Shown one piece after another: positions 8,668-27,535 of a stretch of 64,000 bases of DNA (the stretch's first letter is position 1; every line of letters begins with the position of its first letter). A program made the translations under genes and the position numbers. The DNA comes from an uncultured Pelagibacteraceae bacterium (lineage in GTDB: Bacteria > Pseudomonadota > Alphaproteobacteria > Pelagibacterales > Pelagibacteraceae): the NCBI GenBank assembly GCA_902599495.1, contig CACKFY010000003.1, positions 48,204-112,203 on the forward strand, given 5' to 3'. The notes under the pieces were generated by a model that had not been told where the DNA came from, did no database searches, and saw nothing but the letters and a program-made list of their open reading frames with translations.

Positions 8668-10016
8668 TGTCTTCTAAGAGCTTTTCATTAACTATAAAAG
8701 ATAAGATTAAACCTTATAATAAAACTATAAAAGTGGACTCTGACAAGTCAATATCGATAAGATCCTTTTTATTTGGTTCTATAAGTAATGGAATCTCATC
8801 AATAAGAAATGTTTTAGAGTCTGAAGACGTGTTTTCCACAATTAATTGTCTAAAAAAATTAGGAGTAAAAATTGTTTACAAAAAAAAACAAAATTATCAA
8901 ATTTTTGGTAAAGGTCTAGGTTCTTACAATATTAAAAGTAATTCAAAATTGAATTTTGGAAACTCTGGAACTTTAGCAAGGTTAATTTTGGGTATTATCA
9001 CATCAACACCAAATATGAATTTAATAGTTTCTGGTGATAAATCTCTAAATAAAAGAAATATGAAAAAGTTAATTCAATTAATGAATGAATTTGGAGCCGA
9101 GTTTTTTCCAAAAAAAAAATATTTTTTTCCACTCCGCGTTTTATCGTCAAATTACCCTATCGGTATAAATTATCAATCAGGTACTTCGGCTCAGCTTAAA
9201 AGTGCAGTCATATTAGCTGGTTTAAACTCTTACGGTTTAACTCAAATTATCGAAAAACAAAAAAGTAGAGACCATACTGAGAATATGTTGAAAAAAAATA
9301 ATAAAGCTATGAAAATTGTAAATAAAAAAAATAAAATTATTAAAGTTATTGGGAAGGAAAGTTTAGATAAGTTTTCAGTAGACGTGCCTGGTGATCCGTC
9401 ATCTGCAGCTTTTTTTACAGCATTGACTTTGCTAAAAGAAAATTCTGTTCTTAAAATTAAAAATGTTGGACTTAATCCAACAAGAATTGGTTTTTATGAA
9501 TTATTAAAAAAAAGTGGAGCTAATATTAAATTTTTAAATATTAGAAAAGTTAATAACGAGAAAGTTGGAGATATTTTGGTTAAAAGCAGTAATTTAAAAC
9601 CTTTAAGGGCCTCAAAAAATTACATAACTAGCACCATGGATGAGTATCCAATTTTATTTGTTATGTCAGCTTTGATTAAAGGCAAAAGTTATTTCTATAA
9701 TCTTTCAAGTCTCAAGAACAAAGAGAGCAATAGGGTGTTAGAAATGCAAAAAATTTTAAAACAGATAGGAATTTATTCAAAACTTAATAAAGATAAATTA
9801 TTTATTATAGGGAAGAATATTCATACAATTGCTTTAAATAAGGTTAAAGTTAACAATGTTTTCGATCATCGCATAGCAATGGCATCAGCGATACTAGCTT
9901 TACTAACAGGTGTCAAAATCGTTATAAATGGTTTTGATACAGTTAAAACATCATCTCCAAATTTTTTAAAAATAATAAAAACTCTAGGTGGAAAATTTGA
10001 AAAGAAAAAAAATTAA
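8667..10016 (+). CDS. aroA: 3-phosphoshikimate 1-carboxyvinyltransferase (EPSP synthase)
   Basis: The 449-residue protein has AroA landmarks: DSDKSISIRS, FGNSGTLARL, KSRDHTENML, PGDPSSAAFF, MDEYPILFV and DHRIAMASAI. It condenses shikimate-3-phosphate with phosphoenolpyruvate in chorismate synthesis, feeding the tryptophan genes about 4 kb downstream. It is translationally coupled to lptB (TAATG) and overlaps the start of cmk. It is unusually lysine-rich for the family, matching the local A/T bias. Confidence 0.93.
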   Translation: MSSKSFSLTIKDKIKPYNKTIKVDSDKSISIRSFLFGSISNGISSIRNVLESEDVFSTINCLKKLGVKIVYKKKQNYQIFGKGLGSYNIKSNSKLNFGNSGTLARLILGIITSTPNMNLIVSGDKSLNKRNMKKLIQLMNEFGAEFFPKKKYFFPLRVLSSNYPIGINYQSGTSAQLKSAVILAGLNSYGLTQIIEKQKSRDHTENMLKKNNKAMKIVNKKNKIIKVIGKESLDKFSVDVPGDPSSAAFFTALTLLKENSVLKIKNVGLNPTRIGFYELLKKSGANIKFLNIRKVNNEKVGDILVKSSNLKPLRASKNYITSTMDEYPILFVMSALIKGKSYFYNLSSLKNKESNRVLEMQKILKQIGIYSKLNKDKLFIIGKNIHTIALNKVKVNNVFDHRIAMASAILALLTGVKIVINGFDTVKTSSPNFLKIIKTLGGKFEKKKN

Positions 10017-10641
10017 ACAATTAGTTATTAGTTGCGACGGTGGGGCAGCAAGCGGTAAAACAACCGGTGCAAAGTTAGTATCAAAGAAATATAACCTTAA
10101 ATTTCTCTCTTCAGGCCTACTCTACAGATATGTAAGTTATCTTTTGCTTAAATCAAAACCAAGAAATAAAATATTTTTTTTGGAAAAAAAATTTAATAAC
10201 TTAAATTATAATAAATTAAAAAAAATAAACTTACATACTCCTGAAATTTCAGAGTATAGTGCGATTATAGCAAAAAATAAGGACGTAAGAAAAATCTTAA
10301 AAAGATATCAAATAAAATTTTCAAAAAAATTTAAAAGCTGCTGTATTGAAGGTAGAGACATATCTACAAAAATTTTACCAAATTCAGATCTTAAATTTTA
10401 TTTTATATGTAATATAAATACAGCAGCGCTTAGAAGATATAAAGAGCTTAAAAAAAAATCAAAAAATATTCGGCTAAAAGATGTAAAGCGAGCTTTAAGA
10501 AAACGAGATAGACTTGATAAACAGCGCAAAATTTCACCTTTACTTAAACATAGAGATTCGATAATTGTAAACACGCAAAAATTAAATAAAAAAGAAATGG
10601 TTGAAAAAATGTCAAAACATATAGAGAATTTAATTAATTAA
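9988..10641 (+). CDS. cmk: Cytidylate kinase
   Basis: P-loop GGAASGKTT near residues 18-26, a dTG-like LSSGLLYR segment, and EGRDISTKILP match CMP kinase (family: GRDIGTVVxP). It phosphorylates CMP/dCMP. The track start is GTG within aroA; a TTG at 9997 is an alternative. Either start overlaps the aroA end by 20-29 bases. The aroA-cmk-rpsA order is widely conserved. The P-loop ends KTT rather than the usual KGT. Confidence 0.88.
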   Translation: MENLKRKKIKQLVISCDGGAASGKTTGAKLVSKKYNLKFLSSGLLYRYVSYLLLKSKPRNKIFFLEKKFNNLNYNKLKKINLHTPEISEYSAIIAKNKDVRKILKRYQIKFSKKFKSCCIEGRDISTKILPNSDLKFYFICNINTAALRRYKELKKKSKNIRLKDVKRALRKRDRLDKQRKISPLLKHRDSIIVNTQKLNKKEMVEKMSKHIENLIN

Positions 10642-10644
10642 ACT

Positions 10645-12375
10645 ATGCCTACTGAGCAAGATCAAAATCAATCGAATACAAACCCAAAGCATAAAGAATT
10701 CCAAACTTTACTCGACGAAGATTTTAAAGAGAGAAAGCTTAAAGAGAATGAGATTATTAAAGCTACTGTTACTGAGATAACAAAAAATTTTGTAATTTGC
10801 GATCTAAGAGCCAAGCAAGAAGCTATGATCCCTATCGAAGAATTCAAAAATGATGGGGAACTTGATAAACTTAAAATTGGATCGGTAGTTAGCGTTTATC
10901 TTGAAAGAATTGAGAGCTTTAAAGGTGAGATTGTTGTTTCAAGAGAGAAAGCGAGAAGAATGGTCGCCTGGAAACGAGTTCTGAAATTATTTGAAACACA
11001 AGAAGAGACCGTCGGCTATTTAAAAGGACGTGTCAAGGGAGGGATGGTTTGCGAAATCGACGGACTCCCGACGTTTATGCCCTCTTCACAAATCGATCAG
11101 CGCCCAATGAAAAAAATTGATCACTTAATGAACGTTCCAATTAAAGTAATAATCACGCGGGTTGACTCTCAAAGAGGAAATGCCTGTTCAAGCAGAAGAG
11201 CGGTTCTTGAGAAAAGCAAAAATGCTGAGCTTAAAGAAGCTTTAAAAAATTTGAAAGAGGGAGACATTGTTGAAAATGCAAAAGTAAAAGCAACCACGGA
11301 CTGGGGAATATTTTTAGATATTGATGGTATAGACGCTTTATTACATGTATCCGATCTTTCATACGGTAGGGTTAAAAAACCATCCGATTTAGTGACGATT
11401 GGCCAAAATTTAAAAGTTAAAATTACAAAAATAGACAAAACGACAAACAGAGTTTCAGCTTCTATCAAAGCTCTTACAGAAGACCCTTATGAAAACTTAT
11501 CTAAAAAATTTAAGATAGGAGAGATATACGAGGGTACATGTACTAAATTAATGGACTACGGAGTTTTTGTAAAACTTGAAGAGGGTATAGAAGGATTAAT
11601 CCATAATAGTGAGTTATCTTGGCAAAACAGAAATGTTCAACCTAGTAAAGTTTTGTCCCCTTCTCAAAATGTAAAGGTAAAAATAATTAATATAGATAAG
11701 GATGCTAAAAGAATTTCTCTCTCTTATAAAGAAACTTTAGAAAATCCTTGGACAAGTGCGATGCAATCTGTTGGTAAAAAAGTAAAAGTAAAAATTAAGA
11801 ACATAACTGACAAAGCTATATTTGGAGAGCTTGAGTCTGGCTTGATTGGAATGCTTCACTATAAAGAGATAAGTTTTGACGAAAAGCAAGAAAATCTAAA
11901 TAAATATAAAAAAAACGAATTTATAGATGTAAAAATTATTGAAGTTAAAGATGAAAAAATAAGATTCTCAAAAAGAGCTTTGGATAAAGATCCTATGGAT
12001 TGGTTTAAAGATAATAAAAAAAAAGTTGGAGATATTATCACTACAAGAATACACGAGGTTATGAAAACTGGTGTAAAAGTATCAGTAGATGAAGATAAAA
12101 AAATAATTGTTTCAATAAGAAAAGCTGACTTAGCAAAATCTTCAGCTGACGCGCGCCCAGAGATTTTCAGTCCAGGGAATCAGCTCGATAGTAAATTAGT
12201 GGAGCTCGATTTGGTGAAGCGCAAAATAAAATTAAGTGTTAAAGCAGCTCAAATAGATGAAGAAAAAAGTCTTGTTGCAAAATTTGGTGAGGGAGCAACT
12301 AAATCTGGTGCCACATTAAAAGGTATATTTGAGAAAGCTTTAGGAAAAAAAAGTACTAAAAAAAAAGATAAGTAA
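10645..12375 (+). CDS. rpsA: 30S ribosomal protein S1
   Basis: At 576 residues this has the expected size and repeated S1 RNA-binding modules, recognisable by recurring GDIVENAKVK...WGIFLDIDGIDALLH and VFVKLEEGIEGLIH blocks, including the motif HVSDLS/HNSELSW. S1 helps load mRNAs with weak ribosome binding sites, relevant here because many starts lack a clear Shine-Dalgarno. GC and codon use are higher than in neighbours, as expected for a highly expressed gene. It lies three bases after cmk and abuts ihfB. Confidence 0.95.
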   Translation: MPTEQDQNQSNTNPKHKEFQTLLDEDFKERKLKENEIIKATVTEITKNFVICDLRAKQEAMIPIEEFKNDGELDKLKIGSVVSVYLERIESFKGEIVVSREKARRMVAWKRVLKLFETQEETVGYLKGRVKGGMVCEIDGLPTFMPSSQIDQRPMKKIDHLMNVPIKVIITRVDSQRGNACSSRRAVLEKSKNAELKEALKNLKEGDIVENAKVKATTDWGIFLDIDGIDALLHVSDLSYGRVKKPSDLVTIGQNLKVKITKIDKTTNRVSASIKALTEDPYENLSKKFKIGEIYEGTCTKLMDYGVFVKLEEGIEGLIHNSELSWQNRNVQPSKVLSPSQNVKVKIINIDKDAKRISLSYKETLENPWTSAMQSVGKKVKVKIKNITDKAIFGELESGLIGMLHYKEISFDEKQENLNKYKKNEFIDVKIIEVKDEKIRFSKRALDKDPMDWFKDNKKKVGDIITTRIHEVMKTGVKVSVDEDKKIIVSIRKADLAKSSADARPEIFSPGNQLDSKLVELDLVKRKIKLSVKAAQIDEEKSLVAKFGEGATKSGATLKGIFEKALGKKSTKKKDK

Positions 12376-12657
12376 TTGTCGAAGATTGAAATTTTAAAAA
12401 TATTAAAAAATAAACATCCTGAAATTACAAATAAATATCTCGAAAAAATCTTTGATGTTTTTATTGAAAGTATCTCACAGAATCTGGTGGATAAGAAATC
12501 TTTAGAAATTAGATCTTTTGGAACATTTTTTGTAAAAGAAATTAAAGAAAAAAAACAAGCCAGAAATCCAAAAACTGGTGAAATTATATATATTCCAAAA
12601 AGGAATAAAATAAGATTTAGGGCTAGTAAAAGACTTAAAGAACTAATAAATAAATAA
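12376..12657 (+). CDS. ihfB: HU/IHF-family DNA-bending protein, probable IHF beta
   Basis: The 93-residue protein has the whole HU/IHF fold, with RSFGTFFVKE before the flexible arm and ARNPKTGE at the arm tip, where the intercalating proline lies. The position directly after rpsA is the classic site of ihfB. The start is TTG, immediately after the rpsA stop with no gap, so translation probably reinitiates. It bends DNA in nucleoid organisation and regulation. Confidence 0.88.
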   Translation: MSKIEILKILKNKHPEITNKYLEKIFDVFIESISQNLVDKKSLEIRSFGTFFVKEIKEKKQARNPKTGEIIYIPKRNKIRFRASKRLKELINK

Positions 12658-18694: not shown

Positions 18695-20134
18695 TCATGC
18701 TACAGCTTTCTCGTATTTTATTCTCATTTCTTTGATCATTTCATCAATTTCATTCATATACTCTAATTTTTCTGATGAAATATCTTTTTCTGCCCTAATA
18801 TTATCTATTAGCTGTTCTGCCATGGGAATTGTAGTAAAATTTTCCTCTTCTAAGCTCAATAATCTTTTAGCTGTTTCTATGTGTATTCTGTCAAAATCAT
18901 TTTTAGGTAACGACTCTGGTTGATTTTGATAAATTAATCTTTCTCCAAAATATTTAAATCTTTCATCCTTTAATGACTGTAATAATGAAAATCTCTGTGA
19001 CCAGTCAATTGTGTGAAATTTTTTCATAATTTCTTGATCTTTGTTTTCAGGAAAACCCCCACTATATAATTGATTGTGAGGATCTTTAGAAGTTTTGTCG
19101 TTTTTATTTTTTTTAGATAATTCTTTCTCTTCTGCTATTTCTAACAATGCTTTGCTACAATTTTCTAAAAATTTGGGGTTATCTTTTATAATTTTTGCCC
19201 GTTCTTTTAATTTTTGCATACCAATTTGGGCGTACATTGGTTCTTTTTGTGAAAAAGAAATATTTAATATAACTGGATGTTTGAGTGGTATCGCCCTTAG
19301 AAATTTTCCTGGCTTTTTCATTTTTTCTTTTAAATCATAATAACTTAATTTTATTAATTCTTTTGGATCTGTTTCAAGACAATAGACCATAGGCCAAAAA
19401 TATTTTTTATGATCAAATAGATAAGTGCAAGCAAAAGCTCGGGCTTTACCAAAGAAATAAAGTACGGTTGTAAATAGTTCATTTTCAGTGATCAATTTTT
19501 TAGCTTTATCTTTTGAAGTTGATAAAAAAGCTGAGTCATAAATAGGTTTAGCTGTAGATCTAAATTTATTCATCACTTTAGCACTTACCTCCACATCTTG
19601 AGTAGCTGTGTGAAATTTTGATTTATCAAGTTCAGGAAAGTTTTGCATACCTAAATCCTCTAATTTAAATACTGGATTAGCTGATTTAGAAAACGTGGTC
19701 TTAAGAGAGTCAGGGAAAAATAATTTTGCCGCCCTAGCCCAAGGAAGAAAATCTGCAGCTTCATTTCCTCCAGTTTTAAGAACATAAATAGGTAAAAGAG
19801 ATCTATAATTTTCTTTTTCAATTAGAGGATAATCGTAACCATGACCATTCCAAGTAGCCCAGATGCAAGGAGACCATTTCTGTATAATTTCATGCAAAGC
19901 AAGCATCATAGAGTAATGGCTCATATTAGACTCTTTAAATTTCTTTAATCCTTTATTAACCCAAAGAGAATAAGGGTCAGGACAATAGCCAGGGATATTA
20001 CCATTACAAAAAAATTCAAATCGATCAAGTTCCTGAAAATTATCGTTATATAAAATTCCAGAAATTGAGATTATTTTTCCTGTGCTTGTAGAGCTGCTTT
20101 GGGCTTCACAATCAATTACTGCTATATTGCTCAT
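18695..20134 (-). CDS. sbcB: Exodeoxyribonuclease I (SbcB)-like 3'-5' exonuclease
   Basis: The N-terminus has a DEDDh exonuclease pattern: exo I IDCEAQ, a middle NGHGYDYPLI, and exo III HTATQDVEV. The C-terminal half matches E. coli exonuclease I, notably QLYSGGFPENKDQEIMKKF (family: QLYNGFF) and the KHPVILN segment. It would degrade single-stranded DNA 3' to 5' and help recombination and mismatch repair. It overlaps rmuC by four bases, so two DNA-end-processing genes are coupled. Confidence 0.82.
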   Translation of the reverse strand: MSNIAVIDCEAQSSSTSTGKIISISGILYNDNFQELDRFEFFCNGNIPGYCPDPYSLWVNKGLKKFKESNMSHYSMMLALHEIIQKWSPCIWATWNGHGYDYPLIEKENYRSLLPIYVLKTGGNEAADFLPWARAAKLFFPDSLKTTFSKSANPVFKLEDLGMQNFPELDKSKFHTATQDVEVSAKVMNKFRSTAKPIYDSAFLSTSKDKAKKLITENELFTTVLYFFGKARAFACTYLFDHKKYFWPMVYCLETDPKELIKLSYYDLKEKMKKPGKFLRAIPLKHPVILNISFSQKEPMYAQIGMQKLKERAKIIKDNPKFLENCSKALLEIAEEKELSKKNKNDKTSKDPHNQLYSGGFPENKDQEIMKKFHTIDWSQRFSLLQSLKDERFKYFGERLIYQNQPESLPKNDFDRIHIETAKRLLSLEEENFTTIPMAEQLIDNIRAEKDISSEKLEYMNEIDEMIKEMRIKYEKAVA

Positions 20135-21249
20135 TTTTTTTTAGTCTTATGATATAGTTTAATAAAATCTTGACGGCTTCCACCTTGTTTACCCAGCTTT
20201 CTGAACATTTCAGTTTTTGTTTTACTGTTCTCATCATTTGTTTCTTCTTCGTCTACATCAAATGGAACCTGTTTTTTAGGAGATAAACCTAACTTGTTCA
20301 TCTTCTGAATTTTGCTTAGAAAACTTCCTCTTCCATCTTTAATTTTTTCCATTACTTCTCCCATACTTTTAGAAGTTTTATTTATTGCTTCCTGGGCTTT
20401 TTGAGCTGAACCATAAATGTCTACGGCTTGAGAACTTACTTTGTTTGCTAATTCGATTATATCTTGAACATGTTTTGATTGTTTATCAGCTTTCCATGAG
20501 TATTCCGCTGTTTTTAGCATGTAATATAATATGGATGGTGTACATAGAGTTATTTTTTTCTTTAAAGCATAATCCATTAGTTTGCTTCCACCTTCTCGAG
20601 GCAGATCAGAGATTGCACTTTGATCTGGACAGAACATTATTACAGTGTCTATGGTGTTTAAGTCTTGAATACCTTGATAATCTTTCTTAGCCAAAGTATC
20701 GATGTGATTTTTTAACGATTGTTTATGTCGATCTAATGCATTTTCTTTCGTAAATTCATCTTCTGCATTCACATATTCATCCCAAGCTGTAAGAGAAACT
20801 TTTGAGTCAATGATTGCGTGTCTGCCATCTGGAAAATTTATGATAACATCTGGTATTTGTGTGCCTTCGTCTGTTTTAAAACCTTTGTGAAAATTAAATT
20901 CTTCGCCCTCAGTAAATTTAAGATTTTCAATTAATATGTGATTAAGTAAAAGTTCTCCCCAAGCTCCTTGTTTTTTGCTACCACCTGAAATAAGGGTGTT
21001 TTTTAGCTCTTGAGCAACTTTTACCAACTCACCTTCAGATTTCATGACTGAGTCGAATTTCTCTTTTACTACACCTCTATCTGTAACATTATCCTCGTGA
21101 TATTTATCTAATTTATCATTTAAACTTCTAATATCATTCTCAAAAGAACTAATATCTGTTTTTTTAGTAAAAAAGGATTTTAATAAAAAACCTAAAATCA
21201 AACCAAGAATTAAACCTAATAAAATTTCTATGCTAAATAAATTTATCAA
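20131..21249 (-). CDS. rmuC: DNA recombination protein RmuC
   Basis: An N-terminal membrane segment (about residues 8-27) is followed by a coiled-coil stretch and the RmuC nuclease-like core with GAWGELLL, IPDVIINFPDGRHAIIDSKVSL and FCPDQSAIS. D-V-I, the IDSKV acidic/lysine motif and GEL resemble a PD-(D/E)XK fold. RmuC proteins limit recombination at inverted repeats. It shares four-base overlaps with both sbcB and the lysine-rich gene upstream. Confidence 0.9.
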   Translation of the reverse strand: MINLFSIEILLGLILGLILGFLLKSFFTKKTDISSFENDIRSLNDKLDKYHEDNVTDRGVVKEKFDSVMKSEGELVKVAQELKNTLISGGSKKQGAWGELLLNHILIENLKFTEGEEFNFHKGFKTDEGTQIPDVIINFPDGRHAIIDSKVSLTAWDEYVNAEDEFTKENALDRHKQSLKNHIDTLAKKDYQGIQDLNTIDTVIMFCPDQSAISDLPREGGSKLMDYALKKKITLCTPSILYYMLKTAEYSWKADKQSKHVQDIIELANKVSSQAVDIYGSAQKAQEAINKTSKSMGEVMEKIKDGRGSFLSKIQKMNKLGLSPKKQVPFDVDEEETNDENSKTKTEMFRKLGKQGGSRQDFIKLYHKTKKK

Positions 21250-21638
21250 TGTAATTTCTCCGGATTAGTTGGATGAACGTTAAGCTCTGGGTGATGTTCT
21301 TCTATAAAAGACTTATAATTATCTTTGTTTTCTTTAGTAGTTTGTTCATCGATTGATTTAAAATAAGCTATATTGGTAGACCACATAACTTCTTGCTTAA
21401 TATAATAAAGGATATTATACCAGGCGTCCTCTCTAGAAATACGAGCTTCATTAACAAATTTTCTTAGATCTTTTACTATTTCTTTTGAATGAGCATTAAT
21501 TCGGTCAATCTCTGCTTTTCTTAAACACTCTGGACTAGAATTATTTAATACTTTGAATTTTTTCTTAAAGGGAATTACTTTATTATCCTTTATTTTCCTC
21601 AACTTTTTAGACTTTTTCTTACTTTTTACGTCAGACAT
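21246..21638 (-). CDS. Hypothetical lysine-rich protein (130 aa)
   Basis: The N-terminal 35 residues are strongly basic (KKKSKKLRKIKDNK) and the rest is helical and mixed-charge, including VKDLRKFVNEARISREDAWYN. A clear Shine-Dalgarno (AGGAG) precedes ATG. I recognise no family. It is the first gene of a tightly overlapping unit with rmuC and sbcB, suggesting a DNA-related role, but that is inference from context only. Confidence 0.75.
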   Translation of the reverse strand: MSDVKSKKKSKKLRKIKDNKVIPFKKKFKVLNNSSPECLRKAEIDRINAHSKEIVKDLRKFVNEARISREDAWYNILYYIKQEVMWSTNIAYFKSIDEQTTKENKDNYKSFIEEHHPELNVHPTNPEKLH

Positions 21639-21726: not shown

Positions 21727-21798
21727 TCGTTACAAAATTCTTATACAAAGGATTTTTAATTATGTCAATAATTTTATTTAAAAATTTTAGTCGTTCCA

Positions 21799-22020
21799 TT
21801 ATTTACAATTACAATTAAGATTTTCTTTCCCATAATAAACTATACCTGTGCCATCACAACTAATGCAGAATATTTCCTCGTAATCCACTAAATTAATTCC
21901 CATACCTTTGCAGTCATAACATTCACCAACTATTTCGTTACAATATAGTTTTCCTTCTTCTATTATTCTTTTTTTTATAAAATAATCAGAAAAAAGTATT
22001 ACATTATTTTTTTTTATCAT
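21799..22020 (-). CDS. Small CxxCxGxG zinc-motif protein
   Basis: The C-terminal half contains two DnaJ-type repeats, CYDCKGMG and CISCDGTG, ending in CNCK, so one zinc site is likely. There is no J domain. The track starts at GTG 22032; I prefer ATG at 22020 because neither has a clear Shine-Dalgarno. It lies just downstream of the tRNA-like element and hairpins, on the same strand as the defence-like genes. A zinc-dependent protein or nucleic-acid interaction is inferred; no function is known to me. Confidence 0.6.
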   Translation of the reverse strand: MIKKNNVILFSDYFIKKRIIEEGKLYCNEIVGECYDCKGMGINLVDYEEIFCISCDGTGIVYYGKENLNCNCK

Positions 22021-22050
22021 CTTTCGAAACACTCTCTCAGCCTATTTAAC

Positions 22051-22091
22051 GGAGAAGGGATCTATCCTTCCCCGCAAGATATAGTCATCTT
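22051..22091 (-). promoter_or_regulatory. Two hairpins between the tRNA-like element and the zinc protein
   Basis: Just after the tRNA-like CCA, the minus strand has a small AAGAT/ATCTT stem (22076-22091), then an 8-bp GGGGAAGG/CCTTCTCC stem with one G-U pair (22051-22073). No U-run follows the larger stem, so it is not a standard terminator. It may be a processing signal, a 5' leader structure for the zinc protein, or part of one longer structured RNA. Confidence 0.5.
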
Positions 22092-22176
22092 TGGTACCCA
22101 AAATCAGACTTGCACTGATACTCACCGTAGTGAAACAAGACTAGCTTGTCGCGTCTAACTTTTTCGCCATTTGGGC
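22092..22176 (-). tRNA. Degenerate class II tRNA-Leu-like element
   Basis: The 85-base minus-strand element folds as a cloverleaf: a 7-bp acceptor GCCCAAA/TTTGGGT with a G-U first pair, A then encoded CCA, a D-arm TGGCG...TTAGACGC like tRNA-Leu, a long variable arm TCAC-TACG-GTGA, and a 5-bp T-stem ATCAG/CTGAT. Three positions are abnormal. The anticodon helix closes with a 5-base loop CTAGT (or a 7-base GCTAGTC lacking U33 and purine 37). The T-loop is TGCAAGT with G for the usual U55. The D-loop has GT for GG. UAG sits where an anticodon would be. It is either a pseudo-tRNA or a repurposed tRNA-like RNA. Confidence 0.65.
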
Positions 22177-22190
22177 ATATATTTTTAAAG

Positions 22191-22289
22191 TTAAAAACCA
22201 AACAATAATTTAACTATAAAAAACAATCCAAAACCTAATATTACGAACAAAATAAAACTGCTCAAAAATTGCCATATAAAACTAAACAT
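22191..22289 (-). CDS. Possible 32-residue membrane peptide
   Basis: My translation gives MFSFIWQFL followed by one continuous hydrophobic helix and a short KLLFGF end. It lies between the 93-residue gene and the tRNA-like element on the same strand. No Shine-Dalgarno is clear, and A/T-rich DNA readily produces hydrophobic ORFs, so this is weak. If real, it would be a single-pass peptide, a form often seen in small toxins. Confidence 0.3.
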   Translation of the reverse strand: MFSFIWQFLSSFILFVILGFGLFFIVKLLFGF

Positions 22290-22296
22290 TTTTCAT

Positions 22297-22578
22297 TTAT
22301 TGTTCGTATTTACTTAATTCTTTTTCTAAAACTTCTATTTCATTTAGAACTTTTCTGCAGTTAAAAGTACACAGTAAGTATCTAAAATATTTAATAAAAT
22401 CAGTAGGTAAATTTAATAATCGAACAAAGATATAAAGAATTGGTTGATCTTTATAAAACTCTCTTTGTATTTTATTGTAAAAATTTAAGCTTCGCAAATA
22501 TGCATTTGTATCTTTTAAATAATCTTTTGCGTATTCAAGTCTGTCTCTTAAAATATAATAGAAGTTATCTTTACGCAT
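22297..22578 (-). CDS. Hypothetical protein (93 aa), helical
   Basis: The protein is rich in tyrosine, lysine and leucine, with a mildly hydrophobic centre (LYIFVRLLNLPTDFIKYF) and a charged coiled-coil-like C-terminus (LNEIEVLEKELSKYEQ). There is no recognised domain. It follows vsr by 12 bases on the same strand and is probably co-transcribed. It could be an accessory part of the island, but nothing in the sequence shows its activity. Confidence 0.6.
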   Translation of the reverse strand: MRKDNFYYILRDRLEYAKDYLKDTNAYLRSLNFYNKIQREFYKDQPILYIFVRLLNLPTDFIKYFRYLLCTFNCRKVLNEIEVLEKELSKYEQ

Positions 22579-22590
22579 ATTATTTTTTAA

Positions 22591-22953
22591 TTAAACAGCT
22601 CCATTTATTAAAAGCTCTAAATTTTTAAAAGTTCTAGCTTTAGCTTTTTCATCATTAAGTACACATTCCCAAATATTAATTATTTTATATCCTAAAGCTT
22701 TAAGCTTTTTTGTGTTTTCGTAATCTCTTGCTTTATTTTTTTCAAATACACTTAACCAATAATTAGTATTTTTTTCAGGAATTCTTGAGTGAACACATCC
22801 ATGATTATGCCAAAAACATCCATGAATATTAATTATTAAATTTTTTTCTTTAGTGTAGAAGTCTGGTTTAAAGTGAAAATTTTTTGGTTGGAATTCATAT
22901 TTAGTTTGTAAATCTTCAAGAAACTTTTCTATAATTTTTTCTGGCTGTGTCAT
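22591..22953 (-). CDS. vsr: Vsr-family endonuclease
   Basis: This 120-residue protein keeps the Vsr core: FKPDFY with the metal-binding aspartate, HGCFWHNHGC with the zinc/catalytic histidines and cysteines, NKARD, and GYKIINIWECVL. Vsr enzymes share a PD-(D/E)XK-like fold and nick T:G mismatches next to 5-methylcytosine sites. Here no 5-methylcytosine methyltransferase is nearby; the methyltransferase about 3.5 kb away is of amino type. It may be the nuclease of a restriction-like system. It starts six bases after the winged-helix gene. Confidence 0.88.
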   Translation of the reverse strand: MTQPEKIIEKFLEDLQTKYEFQPKNFHFKPDFYTKEKNLIINIHGCFWHNHGCVHSRIPEKNTNYWLSVFEKNKARDYENTKKLKALGYKIINIWECVLNDEKAKARTFKNLELLINGAV

Positions 22954-22959
22954 ATTTTT

Positions 22960-23652
22960 CTAAATTTTTTTACGTGCAATCCCGGATCTTTCTTTTTTTA
23001 TATAATCAATTTCTTTTTTAAATTTGGTTTCAAAAAATTCTTGATTTTTTTTAAGATTTTTTAATTGCTTTTTATCTATAGTTAAACTTTCATCTATATT
23101 TAAATATTTTGTATCTTTTTTAAAATCTTTTTCTAAAATTGAAATCCAAGTTTTTATTTGTTCTAATTTTTCTGTTAGGACAGGTCCATTCACTCGTGAA
23201 GTTATTCCCCAAAAGTAACAAATTTGATCAAAAGTAGTATTTTCAACATTTTGAAATTTAAGGATTTTTTTCGCGATCTCATCTTCTAAAAATTTTTTTA
23301 CTTTTTCATATATGTTTCTGGAAAGATTGGCTCTCATTTCTTTTTTTTCAGATCTTTTACTTTTGAGCTCTTCTAAAATATAATTCTCAGCTGTGTCAGT
23401 TATTTTATATTGTTTTTCACCGACTTTTCTTATCCAGCCATTCTTATACATAGGACCATTTTTGTTCATTAAAAAAGTATAAATTTGATTTGAGTTTGGA
23501 AATTGCTGATAACCTCTAAGACTGAAATCATCTTGATAAAGTTCCCAACTTTTGACTGTAAGATCCTCAGCAGAAAAAATTTTTTTAGATTTCGACAGCT
23601 CACTAGCAGATATTAAAATTTTTTCAGCTTGGGATAATTTATTAGATTTCAT
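22960..23652 (-). CDS. Uncharacterised defence-island protein with winged-helix-like N-terminus
   Basis: The N-terminal ~95 residues (SQAEKILISASELSK, FSAEDLTVKSWELYQ, WIRKVGEKQYKITDTAENYI) read as a winged helix-turn-helix. The remainder is helical, with QICYFWGITSR and a lysine-rich coiled-coil end. I recognise no named family. It is coupled to the GHKL ATPase by a one-base overlap and followed closely by vsr, so it is likely a subunit or DNA-recognition partner of that ATPase. Confidence 0.75.
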   Translation of the reverse strand: MKSNKLSQAEKILISASELSKSKKIFSAEDLTVKSWELYQDDFSLRGYQQFPNSNQIYTFLMNKNGPMYKNGWIRKVGEKQYKITDTAENYILEELKSKRSEKKEMRANLSRNIYEKVKKFLEDEIAKKILKFQNVENTTFDQICYFWGITSRVNGPVLTEKLEQIKTWISILEKDFKKDTKYLNIDESLTIDKKQLKNLKKNQEFFETKFKKEIDYIKKERSGIARKKI

Positions 23653-26024
23653 TATTCTACTTTAAATATCCCTGCGCTTAAAAGTCTTTCTAAATGTGGT
23701 TCAATAAGTTTATGGAATTTTGTGGTCTCTAAATCAATTAACTTTTGTCTTTCATCCATAGACTCGACTTCGGTATCTTTTTTATTCATTAAATTAATTC
23801 TTGCCATAATTTCAAACCATTGCATTACTACATAAATTCTAAATTGTTTAGATCTTGCTCCTGCTAAGTCACCAAAAGACTTGCTTTTACTTTCCCAAAG
23901 AAAATGAGCAAAAGGAGATTGTAAATTAATCCACCAAATATTTTTTTCTACATCCATTACTCTTTGCCAAACTGGAGGCGTGTCTCTTGAAAATCTTACA
24001 ACTTCCTCTTTTTCAGGTTCTAAGGGATCAAAACTAATTCCGCTATATTTGATTGTTGGAAAACCTCCTTCTTTAGGTTTTTTTTCTTTCTTCTCATTAT
24101 ACTCTATAATTACTTTTGCATCATTACTCTCACAATCTTGTGACATTGCTCTTATTTGTGTTTCACCTACACTTCTACCCCTTACTAAACCTGTAGATGC
24201 TGGAGAAGCTACTCTATCATCATTAGCAATGTAGGTTAAGTAAGCTGAAGAAATTTCAGAATTATTGTTATCAATAATTTTTGGATTAAGTCTGATACTT
24301 GTTCTTTCTTTAAATGAAAAAATTTTATCGTCGAAATTTATTTTAGAAATTTTAGTAACGTTGAGATTTACCCAGTTTGATTTTATCTTTTTATTTTTGG
24401 TTAAAACTCTTATAGCTGTTGATCCAGATTTTTTAGTCTGAAGCAAGTTTAACTTTCTTTCATGAGGAGCTACTATACTTTCATCTCTAATTTGAAAATC
24501 TAAACTTTCATTTGTAACTTCTTCACCATTCTCGTCAAAAGACTTAATATTAGGTCTAAAAACAACTCCAATACCGGCATATTTATGAGTAAACTTTAAT
24601 TCTATATGTGTAATTTTACCCTTTTTCTTAGGAGGGACCGGGGGATCAACATCGTCATCTTCATTACCGTCCTTTTCATTAGGTTTTCCTGAACCTTTAT
24701 CAGACCCAAAAGGATTGTCTAAAAATTTATTATCTTTAATAATGTCTTGCAGAGCTTCGCTGAATTGTAAGATTTTTTCTTGAGACTGTTTGTCAACCTT
24801 GTCACTCTCACTTTCTGCAAATTCTTTTGCAATTTCATCAATTATTTCTGACATCCAATGTTCCAAAGCTCTTATAAATGGATCTCTATTAAAGTCTTTT
24901 CTCGTATTTGAGGATCTTGCCTCTAGTCCGTCGTGAAAAACATCGCCATATAAATATTTAGGAAAGCCACTTGGGAAATTTGTTAGGTTTTTTACCCTAA
25001 ATAATCCATGAGTAACTTTTAATCCTGTTGAGTGTCTTCCTCTAATTACATGTCTTTGTCTAAGAATAGGAGATTTTAAAAAGTCTGTATCTGAAGTTTT
25101 TAAAATTAAATATTTTTCTGTAGAATCTTTAAATGAAATAGTTTCTCCTGTAAGTGGATCAACAAGTTCATCTGGAATATCTATTTTTTTAGATTTGAAA
25201 AATTCATGTGGTAATATCTTTTCTTGTCTGTGGATGTAATCTTTATTAGTATTTTCTAGAATTTTTTTGCCGTCTTTTATTTGATACAAATTTATATTTT
25301 CAAGAGTTTCATAAGCTTCTGGATCCTTCAGAAATTCTTTAATAATATTACTAGGCACAAAATTTTTTGGGTTTTTACCAATAAAAAAAGTGAAATTTTC
25401 TATTTGTGAGAATTCACGCCTTAAAGTGAGTAATTTTGCGTAAGAGTACCCAAATTCTTTAAGTAATTTACTAAGTTTTGTTGCAGGATTAGTAACATGT
25501 TGTTCATCAAATACCTTTAAACCTAATTTTTTTGCTTTACCATAATTAGTTTCATACGTAAGCTGATTATATTTGTTGTTCAAGCACGTATGCCATGTTG
25601 CTTCTTCAAAGTGAAAAGCTCCATAAACTTTTCCACCATTACCGTGTCCTCCTCTAGCATCCTCTTTTTTTGTATGACTGTACAAAGCTGCATCTGATTT
25701 ATTGAGTACCTCAAATTTTTCTACTCTCGATCTGTCAAAACCTATAAAATCTAAAAAACCGATTAATGGAACATCTTTAGCACTTTTTCGTTGTGAAAAT
25801 AATAGAATACAATCTCTACCTGTATGCTTAGGTGCAACTTTGTTTCCTATCATTGCATTTTCAGAATTTTTAGCTAATTCTCTTAAACCTTCAGCGTGCG
25901 AACTTAGAGTTCTTGATAACGATTTGAATGTACTATCGTAATCAATTCTGTTTGAAATTCTAAAATTTGCTTTAGAATTATTTTCTTTTTGATTAGTATC
26001 TTCCATAAAATTTACAATTTCCAT
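23652..26024 (-). CDS. GHKL ATPase (MORC/MutL-like) with two Ig-like domains
   Basis: The 790-residue protein has a Bergerat-fold ATPase in roughly residues 30-340. Its N-box is LRELAKNSENA (Glu49, Asn53), the G1-like turn is DFIGFD (about 92-97), and the G2 loop is GGHGNGGK (125-132). An acidic and proline-rich linker (about 440-470) leads to two Big_2-like immunoglobulin modules (about 470-556 and 560-643), the second with DDRVASPASTGLV and SVGETQIRA. A helical C-terminus follows. There is no signal peptide. MORC/MutL-type ATPases act as ATP-driven DNA clamps, and prokaryotic versions occur in restriction clusters. The gene is coupled to the winged-helix gene. Confidence 0.8.
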   Translation of the reverse strand: MEIVNFMEDTNQKENNSKANFRISNRIDYDSTFKSLSRTLSSHAEGLRELAKNSENAMIGNKVAPKHTGRDCILLFSQRKSAKDVPLIGFLDFIGFDRSRVEKFEVLNKSDAALYSHTKKEDARGGHGNGGKVYGAFHFEEATWHTCLNNKYNQLTYETNYGKAKKLGLKVFDEQHVTNPATKLSKLLKEFGYSYAKLLTLRREFSQIENFTFFIGKNPKNFVPSNIIKEFLKDPEAYETLENINLYQIKDGKKILENTNKDYIHRQEKILPHEFFKSKKIDIPDELVDPLTGETISFKDSTEKYLILKTSDTDFLKSPILRQRHVIRGRHSTGLKVTHGLFRVKNLTNFPSGFPKYLYGDVFHDGLEARSSNTRKDFNRDPFIRALEHWMSEIIDEIAKEFAESESDKVDKQSQEKILQFSEALQDIIKDNKFLDNPFGSDKGSGKPNEKDGNEDDDVDPPVPPKKKGKITHIELKFTHKYAGIGVVFRPNIKSFDENGEEVTNESLDFQIRDESIVAPHERKLNLLQTKKSGSTAIRVLTKNKKIKSNWVNLNVTKISKINFDDKIFSFKERTSIRLNPKIIDNNNSEISSAYLTYIANDDRVASPASTGLVRGRSVGETQIRAMSQDCESNDAKVIIEYNEKKEKKPKEGGFPTIKYSGISFDPLEPEKEEVVRFSRDTPPVWQRVMDVEKNIWWINLQSPFAHFLWESKSKSFGDLAGARSKQFRIYVVMQWFEIMARINLMNKKDTEVESMDERQKLIDLETTKFHKLIEPHLERLLSAGIFKVE

Positions 26025-26251
26025 TTTTTATTTCTTTTGTTTTCTTGTGCTTTTAATTTGGACTTTATTAATGAGAGTTCATCTCCAATGTCTTTTAAAA
26101 TTTTTTCGAATTCGTCGCCATCGTAGCTATAGTTATTTTTATTTGTCATATTCCCAACCAATCTGAGATGTTTGAGAACATTGTTGACCCTGATAGGAGC
26201 CAAATCTGTAAATCTTTTTCTTTTATTAACATTCTTCTTTTTTTCTTCCAT
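26012..26251 (-). CDS. Small conserved-looking protein (79 aa) at head of defence operon
   Basis: A basic N-terminus (KKKNVNKRKRF) precedes a helical core RVNNVLKHLRLVGNMTNKNNYSYDGDEFEKIL, then a charged coiled coil. This core resembles short proteins often found beside DNA-modification genes, but I know no function for them. A GGAAGAA Shine-Dalgarno precedes the ATG. It overlaps the ATPase start by 13 bases and is the first gene after a large inverted repeat, so a regulator or adaptor role is possible. Confidence 0.65.
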   Translation of the reverse strand: MEEKKKNVNKRKRFTDLAPIRVNNVLKHLRLVGNMTNKNNYSYDGDEFEKILKDIGDELSLIKSKLKAQENKRNKKWKL

Positions 26252-26494: not shown

Positions 26495-27535
26495 ATGGGA
26501 AAAAATCCGATAAAAAAAAAATTAAATGGAAGTGGAATTATTTACCGCGAAATAGCCAAGAAAAATGGCGGGATCATTTATCAAGGAAATTCTCTCCAAT
26601 TAATCAATAATCCAAAATTTATTAGAAGATATGAGGGTAAAATAGACTTGATACTTACTTCCCCTCCATTTGCACTTAATAATCCAAAAAATTATGGCAA
26701 TCATGCAGGTAATAAAAAACCCAACGCATCTTTAGCTGTTGGAGAAGGAGAAGAATATATAAAATGGTTTTCTAGTTATGCAAAGCCACTTGCAAAACTT
26801 CTTTCAAAAAAAGGTTCAATTGTAGTTGAGATGGGCAATTCTTGGACCAGAGGAGAGCCGACCATGTCTTTGACCACTTATGAGGCTTTAAAGGGATTTA
26901 TGAAAAAAGGCAATCTTAAATTATGCCAAGAATTTATTTGGAATAATACAGCAAAACTCCCGGGTCCAGCTCAATGGGTTACAAAAAATAGATGGAGAGC
27001 AAAAGACTCTTTTACAAAAATTTGGTGGTTCTCAAAAACTGCATACCCAAAAGCAAATAATCGTAAAATTCTTAAGCCCTATAGTAAGGAAATGATAAAA
27101 TTATTAAACAGGCAGACGTATAATTTTGGTAAAAGATCTTCGGGTCATAGAATTTCAGCCGAAAGTTTTTTAAATAGAAATAAAGGCTCAATACCATCAA
27201 ATGTATTTAAAAACGAGGAATTTTATTTAAAGGACCCTTCCAGTGTAATTGAGATATCAAATACGATCGAAACAAAATATTTAAGGTATTGTAAAATAAA
27301 TAATATACAAATCCATGATGCTCGGATGCCTACGCATATTGCTGCGTTTTTTATTGATTTTTTAACCACTCCTGGAGATAAAGTTTTAGATCCCTTTGCA
27401 GGTTCTAATACAACAGGATACGTTGCATCGCGAAAAAAAAGAAAATGGGTTTCAATAGAATTAAATAGAGATTATATAAGAGGTAGCTTGGGATGGTTTA
27501 AGGGGAAAAAATATTTTAAGAATAAAGAAATATAA
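26495..27535 (+). CDS. Amino-type DNA methyltransferase (N4-cytosine or N6-adenine)
   Basis: Motif IV TSPPF (residues 55-59) comes first, and the SAM-binding motif I VLDPFAGSNTTGY (about 297-309) is near the C-terminus, the order of beta-class methyltransferases. TSPPF favours N4-methylcytosine but does not exclude N6-methyladenine. The enzyme would modify chromosomal sites in the cytoplasm. It is transcribed away from the GHKL ATPase and Vsr genes, as expected for a modification gene paired with a restriction-like module. The recognition site is unknown. Confidence 0.9.
   Translation: MGKNPIKKKLNGSGIIYREIAKKNGGIIYQGNSLQLINNPKFIRRYEGKIDLILTSPPFALNNPKNYGNHAGNKKPNASLAVGEGEEYIKWFSSYAKPLAKLLSKKGSIVVEMGNSWTRGEPTMSLTTYEALKGFMKKGNLKLCQEFIWNNTAKLPGPAQWVTKNRWRAKDSFTKIWWFSKTAYPKANNRKILKPYSKEMIKLLNRQTYNFGKRSSGHRISAESFLNRNKGSIPSNVFKNEEFYLKDPSSVIEISNTIETKYLRYCKINNIQIHDARMPTHIAAFFIDFLTTPGDKVLDPFAGSNTTGYVASRKKRKWVSIELNRDYIRGSLGWFKGKKYFKNKEI

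Follow-up and report, generated by a model that had tools for sequence, protein, structure and literature searches.

A Vsr-family nuclease as putative effector of an N4-type restriction-modification system in SAR11 bacteria

The window analysed here, a stretch of 64,000 nucleotides from a SAR11 (Pelagibacteraceae) genome (911 kb, 78% complete), was found to carry a Vsr-family nuclease gene in an operon with a GHKL ATPase, next to a divergent methyltransferase of the N4-cytosine type. Operon and methyltransferase probably constitute a single MORC/paraMORC-type restriction-modification system with Vsr as its ATPase-gated nuclease, and Vsr most likely cuts foreign DNA rather than repairing the cell's own. 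The original prediction was that Vsr might serve restriction as an effector, together with the GHKL ATPase and a winged-helix protein; comparison with related loci supports this role, in which Vsr would act on unmethylated DNA. The role is favoured because no 5-methylcytosine (5mC) methyltransferase was found in the three genomes of the N4 type, MutL was not found and the mismatch-clamp helix is missing. It is further favoured by a switch of the partner methyltransferase from C5 to N4 with the active site kept, by a location in a defence hotspot and by changes in the Vsr N-terminus that go together with those of the ATPase cassette. The three N4-type genomes (71–78% complete) are that of the window (G000), G338 (AG-904-I05, locus L017) and G761 (locus L051), the latter two having the same Vsr/methyltransferase pair and belonging to the window's genus.

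The vsr gene and its neighbours

The interval predicted to encode a Vsr-family nuclease coincides exactly with an open reading frame (Table 1), on whose identity Pfam (PF03852, E=5.6e-12, 45.8 bits against a cut-off of 27), PADLOC (Vsr, E=2.5e-19) and the solved E. coli Vsr (1vsr, E=8.5e-19) agree. Its score with NCBIfam TIGR00632 is under the curated cut-off (85.9 vs 97.85 bits). In the alignment with E. coli Vsr, residues E25, D51, C66, W68, H69, H71, C73, W86 and C117 are all conserved, comprising the nuclease residues (E25/D51/H69), the zinc ligands (C66/H71/C73/C117) and the aromatic wedge that serves to recognise T:G (W68, W86). T63 is replaced by isoleucine, and no counterpart of E. coli residues 1–20 was found in this alignment.

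Table 1. Features of the locus, in window coordinates
Feature	Position	Strand	Description	Evidence
79-aa small protein	26012..26251	-	First gene of the operon; overlaps ATPase start	82–95% identical in L017, L051
GHKL (Bergerat-fold) ATPase	23652..26024	-	790 aa; MORC-like N-terminal half and Ig-like beta-sandwich domains	Motifs, Foldseek
Ig-like region of GHKL protein	24099..24608	-	Residues ~473–642	Foldseek, LigA and S-layer Ig-like domains (E=3e-12); PF02368 Big_2 in homologues
Winged-helix-like protein	22960..23652	-	230 aa	AlphaFold2 pLDDT 83, winged-helix topology; weak winged-helix PDB matches
vsr	22591..22953	-	PD-(D/E)XK nuclease, 120 aa, without canonical N-terminal helix; proposed restriction nuclease	PF03852, PDB 1vsr, residue alignment
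Vsr residues 1–43	22825..22953	-	Proposed docking part; varies together with ATPase cassette	Codon comparison; E. coli Vsr-MutL precedent
Vsr residues 44–120	22594..22824	-	Proposed catalytic/DNA-recognition part	Codon comparison
93-aa small protein	22297..22578	-	Downstream of vsr	In most SAR11 GHKL-Vsr loci, both types
Beta-class DNA methyltransferase, M.PvuII type	26495..27535	+	Divergent; proposed self-protection enzyme	PF01555, PDB 1boo, motifs

The 3′ end of the winged-helix gene (22954–22990, minus strand) lies in frame with vsr, separated from it by a single TAG (ERSGIARKKI*KNMTQPE), and this stretch faintly resembles the canonical N-terminal helix of Vsr. The resemblance is probably due to chance, as the stretch is absent from L017 and L051. 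The Vsr profile extends in the 5′ direction across the in-frame TAG into the winged-helix gene, but a split or read-through fusion of the winged-helix protein and Vsr was rejected since the starts in L017 and L051 are overlapping and out of frame; the differing C-terminus of the winged-helix protein in these two loci is a further argument against it.

The operon runs in the order 79-aa gene, GHKL ATPase, winged-helix protein, vsr and 93-aa gene, the two small genes being conserved additions to those originally predicted. Homologues of the 79-aa protein also precede the GHKL genes of the C5-type loci, of L057 and of an Ensifer plasmid (L111). Proteins of 75–115 aa sharing the core R..K.L..(I/V).NLSN...Y were seen before GHKL in the window and in L017, L051, L009–L012, L057 and L111, and these pre-GHKL proteins had no family match in Pfam, PHROGs or PADLOC.

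The GHKL protein of the window went unrecognised in the Pfam scan, and its assignment needed motifs and fold comparison. The GHKL boxes (E49, K52-N53, D92-F-x-G95 and GHGNGGK126-132) are invariant among the aligned relatives, and a model of modest confidence (pLDDT 69) resembles the ATPases of MORC2/3/4 (Foldseek E down to 9e-8). With regard to an S5 domain following GHKL, the matches in this model span MORC ATPase cassettes of ~390–500 residues. Assignment to MORC proper was rejected, since a regular-expression search of the protein gave no match to the MORC-specific motif GhXhhpXXRhl of Iyer et al.; on sequence grounds it is better described as MORC-like or paraMORC-like. Homologues of the winged-helix protein adjoin GHKL genes in IMG/VR contigs. 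The ATPase and winged-helix protein of the original prediction are thus real, given the GHKL boxes and the MORC-like and winged-helix-like models.

The amino-type methyltransferase said to lie across a divergent promoter was likewise recovered, with the motif TSPPF followed by DPFAGSNTTG. It matches PF01555 (E=1.2e-30) and is closest to the N4-cytosine enzyme M.PvuII (PDB 1boo, E=1.6e-58), and because it is of this type its product is probably N4-methylcytosine. Deamination of N4-methylcytosine yields uracil and not thymine, and the classical Vsr substrate would therefore not arise at the methylated site. The divergent promoter is no argument against a single system, as each of the three N4 loci has retained this arrangement. 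Avoidance of the PvuII site CAGCTG, taken as a sign of PvuII specificity, was rejected: none was detected in the N4-type genomes, with 205 sites in G000 at a density equal to that of its relatives, and the site of the methyltransferase need not be CAGCTG.

Methyltransferase partners and descent of the SAR11 Vsrs

The prediction that this Vsr has no 5mC methyltransferase was borne out on a check of the assembly. No PF00145 match above threshold was found in the 78%-complete G000 (best sub-threshold match 14.5 bits), nor in G338 or G761 (assemblies 71–78% complete), with a match in 10 of 14 control genomes. The other amino-methyltransferase of G000 is on contig C11. A C5 methyltransferase adjoins the GHKL-Vsr operon in each of the six C5-type SAR11 genomes (L009, L010, L011, L012, L013 and L052). 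No MutL (PF01119) was found in the five SAR11 genomes searched, and mutS/mutL have been reported absent from SAR11 subclades Ic and IIa.A (PMC12374537).

All nine SAR11 Vsrs (that of the window and eight others) lack the N-terminal helix, while an RSxxM-type helix is present in 41/41 Vsrs from 40 other alphaproteobacterial loci, 39 of them called by regular expression and two by eye (L084, VRSALMKRVR; L087, SRRMARVR). In E. coli Vsr this helix (residues 1–20) reportedly takes part in T:G recognition, according to a structure from 1999. A C5 methyltransferase lies within ~8 kb of Vsr in 37 of these 40 loci. Because the C5-linked SAR11 Vsrs also lack the helix, its loss is a feature of the system's SAR11 lineage and not a sign of the N4 switch; and since the nine proteins are related, its absence does not represent nine independent losses.

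In the maximum-likelihood tree the nine SAR11 Vsrs form one clade (97/90). The three N4-linked proteins sit within it on a long branch, surrounded by C5-linked ones (95/92, 100/100), their exact nesting being less sure than the clade because the rows of the tree differ in composition. This position among C5-linked SAR11 proteins indicates that the methyltransferase partner was switched from C5 to N4, with the nuclease kept intact and under constraint. Residues 44–120 are 91–96% identical among the three N4 loci, with synonymous differences in 18–20% of codons. A repair enzyme deprived of its substrate should decay; this part of Vsr is instead constrained.

Outside SAR11, GHKL and winged-helix genes were found with an M.PvuII-like methyltransferase and no Vsr in four IMG/VR contigs (L054, L055, L057 and L058) and on the Ensifer plasmid (NZ_CP118613.1). 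L054 and L111 have an AAA_5 ATPase and a protein with sub-threshold PD-(D/E)XK/VRR_NUC matches in place of Vsr, and no nuclease was recognised at the loci of L055, L057 and L058. The closest non-SAR11 relatives of the GHKL/winged-helix/N4 set being without Vsr, the GHKL/winged-helix pair can do without it. The methyltransferase and the effector joined to this core seem to vary, Vsr taking the place of effector in SAR11. Among the GHKL loci of viral contigs, no Vsr was found except in the IMG/VR contig L056, where a C5 methyltransferase-Vsr fusion (9818–11617) lies beside GHKL and winged-helix genes; the N-terminal helix is still present in this fusion, and the residue equivalent to E. coli C66 is a threonine. 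A single-sequence GHKL query against the genome contigs gave no match, a two-row alignment query matched AG-904-I05 only, and only the window's own genome was returned when 399 genomes across the phylum were searched for GHKL. The combination of Vsr, N4 methyltransferase and MORC-like ATPase is that of a few ocean SAR11 bacteria.

Genomic slot and exchange within vsr

As far as the contigs show, the GHKL-Vsr loci share a slot beside sbcB/rmuC, L013 being on a short contig without those flanks. Most flank-bearing relatives examined (L119, L121–L128) have nothing between rmuC and ADP-ribosylglycohydrolase/rlmN/fmn; in G307, a congener with a 99% identical p30 protein, only two short ORFs occupy this interval. 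The slot of G252 (L120; 2811–9953) holds an OLD-like AAA_15 ATPase together with NurA- and HerA-like genes, and NurA with HerA is a known defence combination. These gene contents make the slot a SAR11 defence hotspot. In G318 (L118; 5019–8643) it holds proteins of 533 and 258 aa beside RmuC, the best PADLOC match of this RmuC being to a reverse-transcriptase defence (DRT) model, in its RmuC part. The C5-type GHKL protein of L009 (4946–7123, plus strand) has a PADLOC match (E=6e-17) to PDC-M33A, a phage-defence candidate. The sbcB/rmuC genes of the window (18695–21638, minus strand) are unusual alleles, SbcB being only 33–35% identical to that of most congeners; the window RmuC resembles that of L009 (58%), and an extra 130-aa gene is common to both. 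The hotspot flanks themselves seem to have been exchanged.

Within the N4 loci, the methyltransferase (72–76% identical), the 79-aa protein (82–95%) and the C-terminal part of Vsr are retained. The GHKL and winged-helix proteins of L017 are only 40% and 44% identical to those of the window, and L051 has a single unrelated 802-aa GHKL protein in place of both. The latter (10197–12605, minus strand), located between the conserved small genes and vsr, was recognised by a match to HATPase_c_3 (E=3e-4) that is under the Pfam cut-off. ATPase exchange is also seen among C5 loci, L009 and L052 sharing 74% identity in the methyltransferase, ~90% in Vsr and 31% in GHKL.

Vsr residues 1–43 are only 47–49% identical among the N4 loci, leaving the N-terminal part 44–47 points below the C-terminal part, compared with a gap of at most 26 points in all 820 alphaproteobacterial Vsr pairs. 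DNA identity between the window and L051 is 88% over window positions 21796–22945 (the C-terminal part of Vsr through the small gene) and 66–73% in most other alignable blocks; synonymous divergence is 18% in this block vs 43–50% in the flanking genes. The pattern suggests homologous recombination that broke within vsr, the C-terminal part staying with the methyltransferase and the N-terminal part with the ATPase. In E. coli, the interaction of MutL with Vsr is described as involving the N-terminal (GHKL) domain of MutL and the N-terminus of Vsr (Monastiriakos 2004 and Heinze 2009, as cited in PMC6116569), and the MutL domain binds and stimulates Vsr (PMC6116569). Because of this contact the N-terminal part of the SAR11 Vsr may be read, from a small sample, as a dock for the ATPase.

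Proposed mechanism, alternatives and known systems

In the mechanism proposed, the methyltransferase would mark recognition sites in the cell's own DNA, probably as N4-methylcytosine. The GHKL ATPase and the winged-helix protein would act as an ATP-driven clamp on unmarked foreign DNA, which would dock the N-terminal part of Vsr and switch it on, and the C-terminal part would read the shared site and cut, in place of the nick made in T:G repair. We infer that the proteins form a complex, that Vsr and the methyltransferase share a site, that unmethylated DNA is cut and that phages are stopped. Against this mechanism count the Vsr-less GHKL/winged-helix/N4 relatives outside SAR11, the retention of W68 and W86, the lack of CAGCTG avoidance and the 71–78% completeness of the genomes. 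It is plausible, if slightly short of probable, that a Vsr once devoted to 5mC repair now serves an N4mC restriction-modification system as its site-specific nuclease under ATPase control. Its C-terminal part would then recognise the same site as the methyltransferase, and its N-terminal part would be a dock, exchangeable to suit different GHKL ATPases, that recombination inside vsr would have swapped in nature. In VcSduA, a fusion of GHKL and PD-(D/E)xK domains, both activities are needed for phage defence (PMC12137116).

The GHKL and winged-helix proteins could be the real effector, acting by MORC-like entrapment or compaction of DNA or by blocking phage DNA, with Vsr an accessory that only improves the outcome. 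We consider this unlikely: the Vsr-less viral contigs and Ensifer plasmid described above, and a model resembling the MORC2 ATPase solved with DNA, speak for it, but a catalytically intact Vsr is kept in 9/9 SAR11 loci, even with an unrelated GHKL replacement, and L056 has Vsr and the C5 methyltransferase as one fused protein next to GHKL/winged-helix genes. Very-short-patch repair, either of T:G at sites of an undetected 5mC methyltransferase or of replication errors in cells without MutS/MutL, would agree with membership of the Vsr family, with the conserved aromatic wedge, with the incompleteness of the assemblies (71–78%) and with the 5mC enzyme of the C5-type cousins. It is nevertheless improbable, given that a 5mC enzyme would be missed in all three genomes with a chance of ~0.22 x 0.22 x 0.29 = 1.4% if independent, that the helix with its mismatch-contacting residue is missing, that linkage to the ATPase and the N4 methyltransferase is strict, and that the five SAR11 genomes searched gave no MutL.

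Two further readings carry little weight. Type IV-like restriction, in which ATPase and Vsr would attack foreign 5mC or hypermodified cytosine and the N4 methyltransferase would only block self-recognition, can draw on the action of Vsr relatives at 5mC sites and on the existence of such ATPase-nuclease pairs (GmrSD-like; PMC12137116). The methyltransferase is, however, always kept, as classical self-protection predicts, and no modified-base reader domain was recognised, which makes this a very slim chance. That Vsr is a decaying passenger, left after the N4 methyltransferase replaced the C5 one, is hardly credible in spite of the truncated N-terminus and the long branch in the tree, as the frame is open, the catalytic and zinc residues are all intact and residues 44–120 have stayed nearly identical despite the synonymous differences.

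The preferred reading, of an ATPase-gated restriction nuclease, has precedents. Predicted restriction systems combining MORC/paraMORC, methylase and Vsr were described by Iyer, Abhiman and Aravind (2008; PMC2292703), with Candidatus Pelagibacter among the species in their Figure 2. These have a GHKL ATPase, a methyltransferase and a Vsr-superfamily nuclease in one neighbourhood, as here, and a restriction role is predicted in both cases; the window locus differs in having no superfamily II helicase, in that the MORC-specific S5 motif was not found, and in its N4-type methyltransferase. Related neighbourhoods in which Vsr occurs with methyltransferases of the C5 and N6/N4 types have also been reported (Bellieny-Rabelo et al., 2021; PMC8011034). 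Those RR-like/HEF_HK systems likewise place a GHKL protein, Vsr and a methyltransferase (C5 or N6/N4) side by side, but Pfam gave no match to their Response_reg_2 and HATPase domains in the window proteins. In comparison with Vsr/Dcm repair in E. coli, the nuclease fold and the catalytic and zinc residues are the same, and E. coli Vsr also works with a GHKL protein, MutL; the window Vsr, in contrast, has no N-terminal helix, 5mC partner or MutL, and is found in a variable defence slot with an ATPase of its own. The methyltransferase is homologous to M.PvuII over its length, but it is paired with GHKL/winged-helix/Vsr, and no PvuII-type endonuclease was recognised by Pfam or PADLOC among the window proteins scanned. 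In the type I-D Shedu protein VcSduA (PMC12137116) a GHKL ATPase controls a PD-(D/E)xK nuclease, as is only proposed for the window locus; VcSduA is, however, a single fused protein without a methyltransferase and with a nuclease of a different family. As for Mza (MutL-Z1-DUF-AIPR), no Z1/AIPR match was found in the window proteins with Pfam or PADLOC, the latter possibly having no Mza model.

Since 2008 two roles have been considered for Vsr in MORC-type operons, that of a repair guard of 5mC sites and that of a restriction nuclease, and both fit most of these Vsrs because nearly all adjoin 5mC methyltransferases. An N4mC partner weighs against repair where neither a 5mC enzyme nor MutL is detected in the cell, and the restriction role thus becomes cleanly testable. 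The three loci, with a common nuclease end and differing ATPases and Vsr N-termini, also form a natural domain-swap set for the switching of a nuclease by a MORC-like ATPase. The general kind of system was already predicted in 2008; what is new is the N4 partner in cells without a detected 5mC enzyme or MutL, together with the switch from C5 to N4 indicated by phylogeny and the apparent exchange, in nature, of the Vsr N-terminus along with the ATPase.
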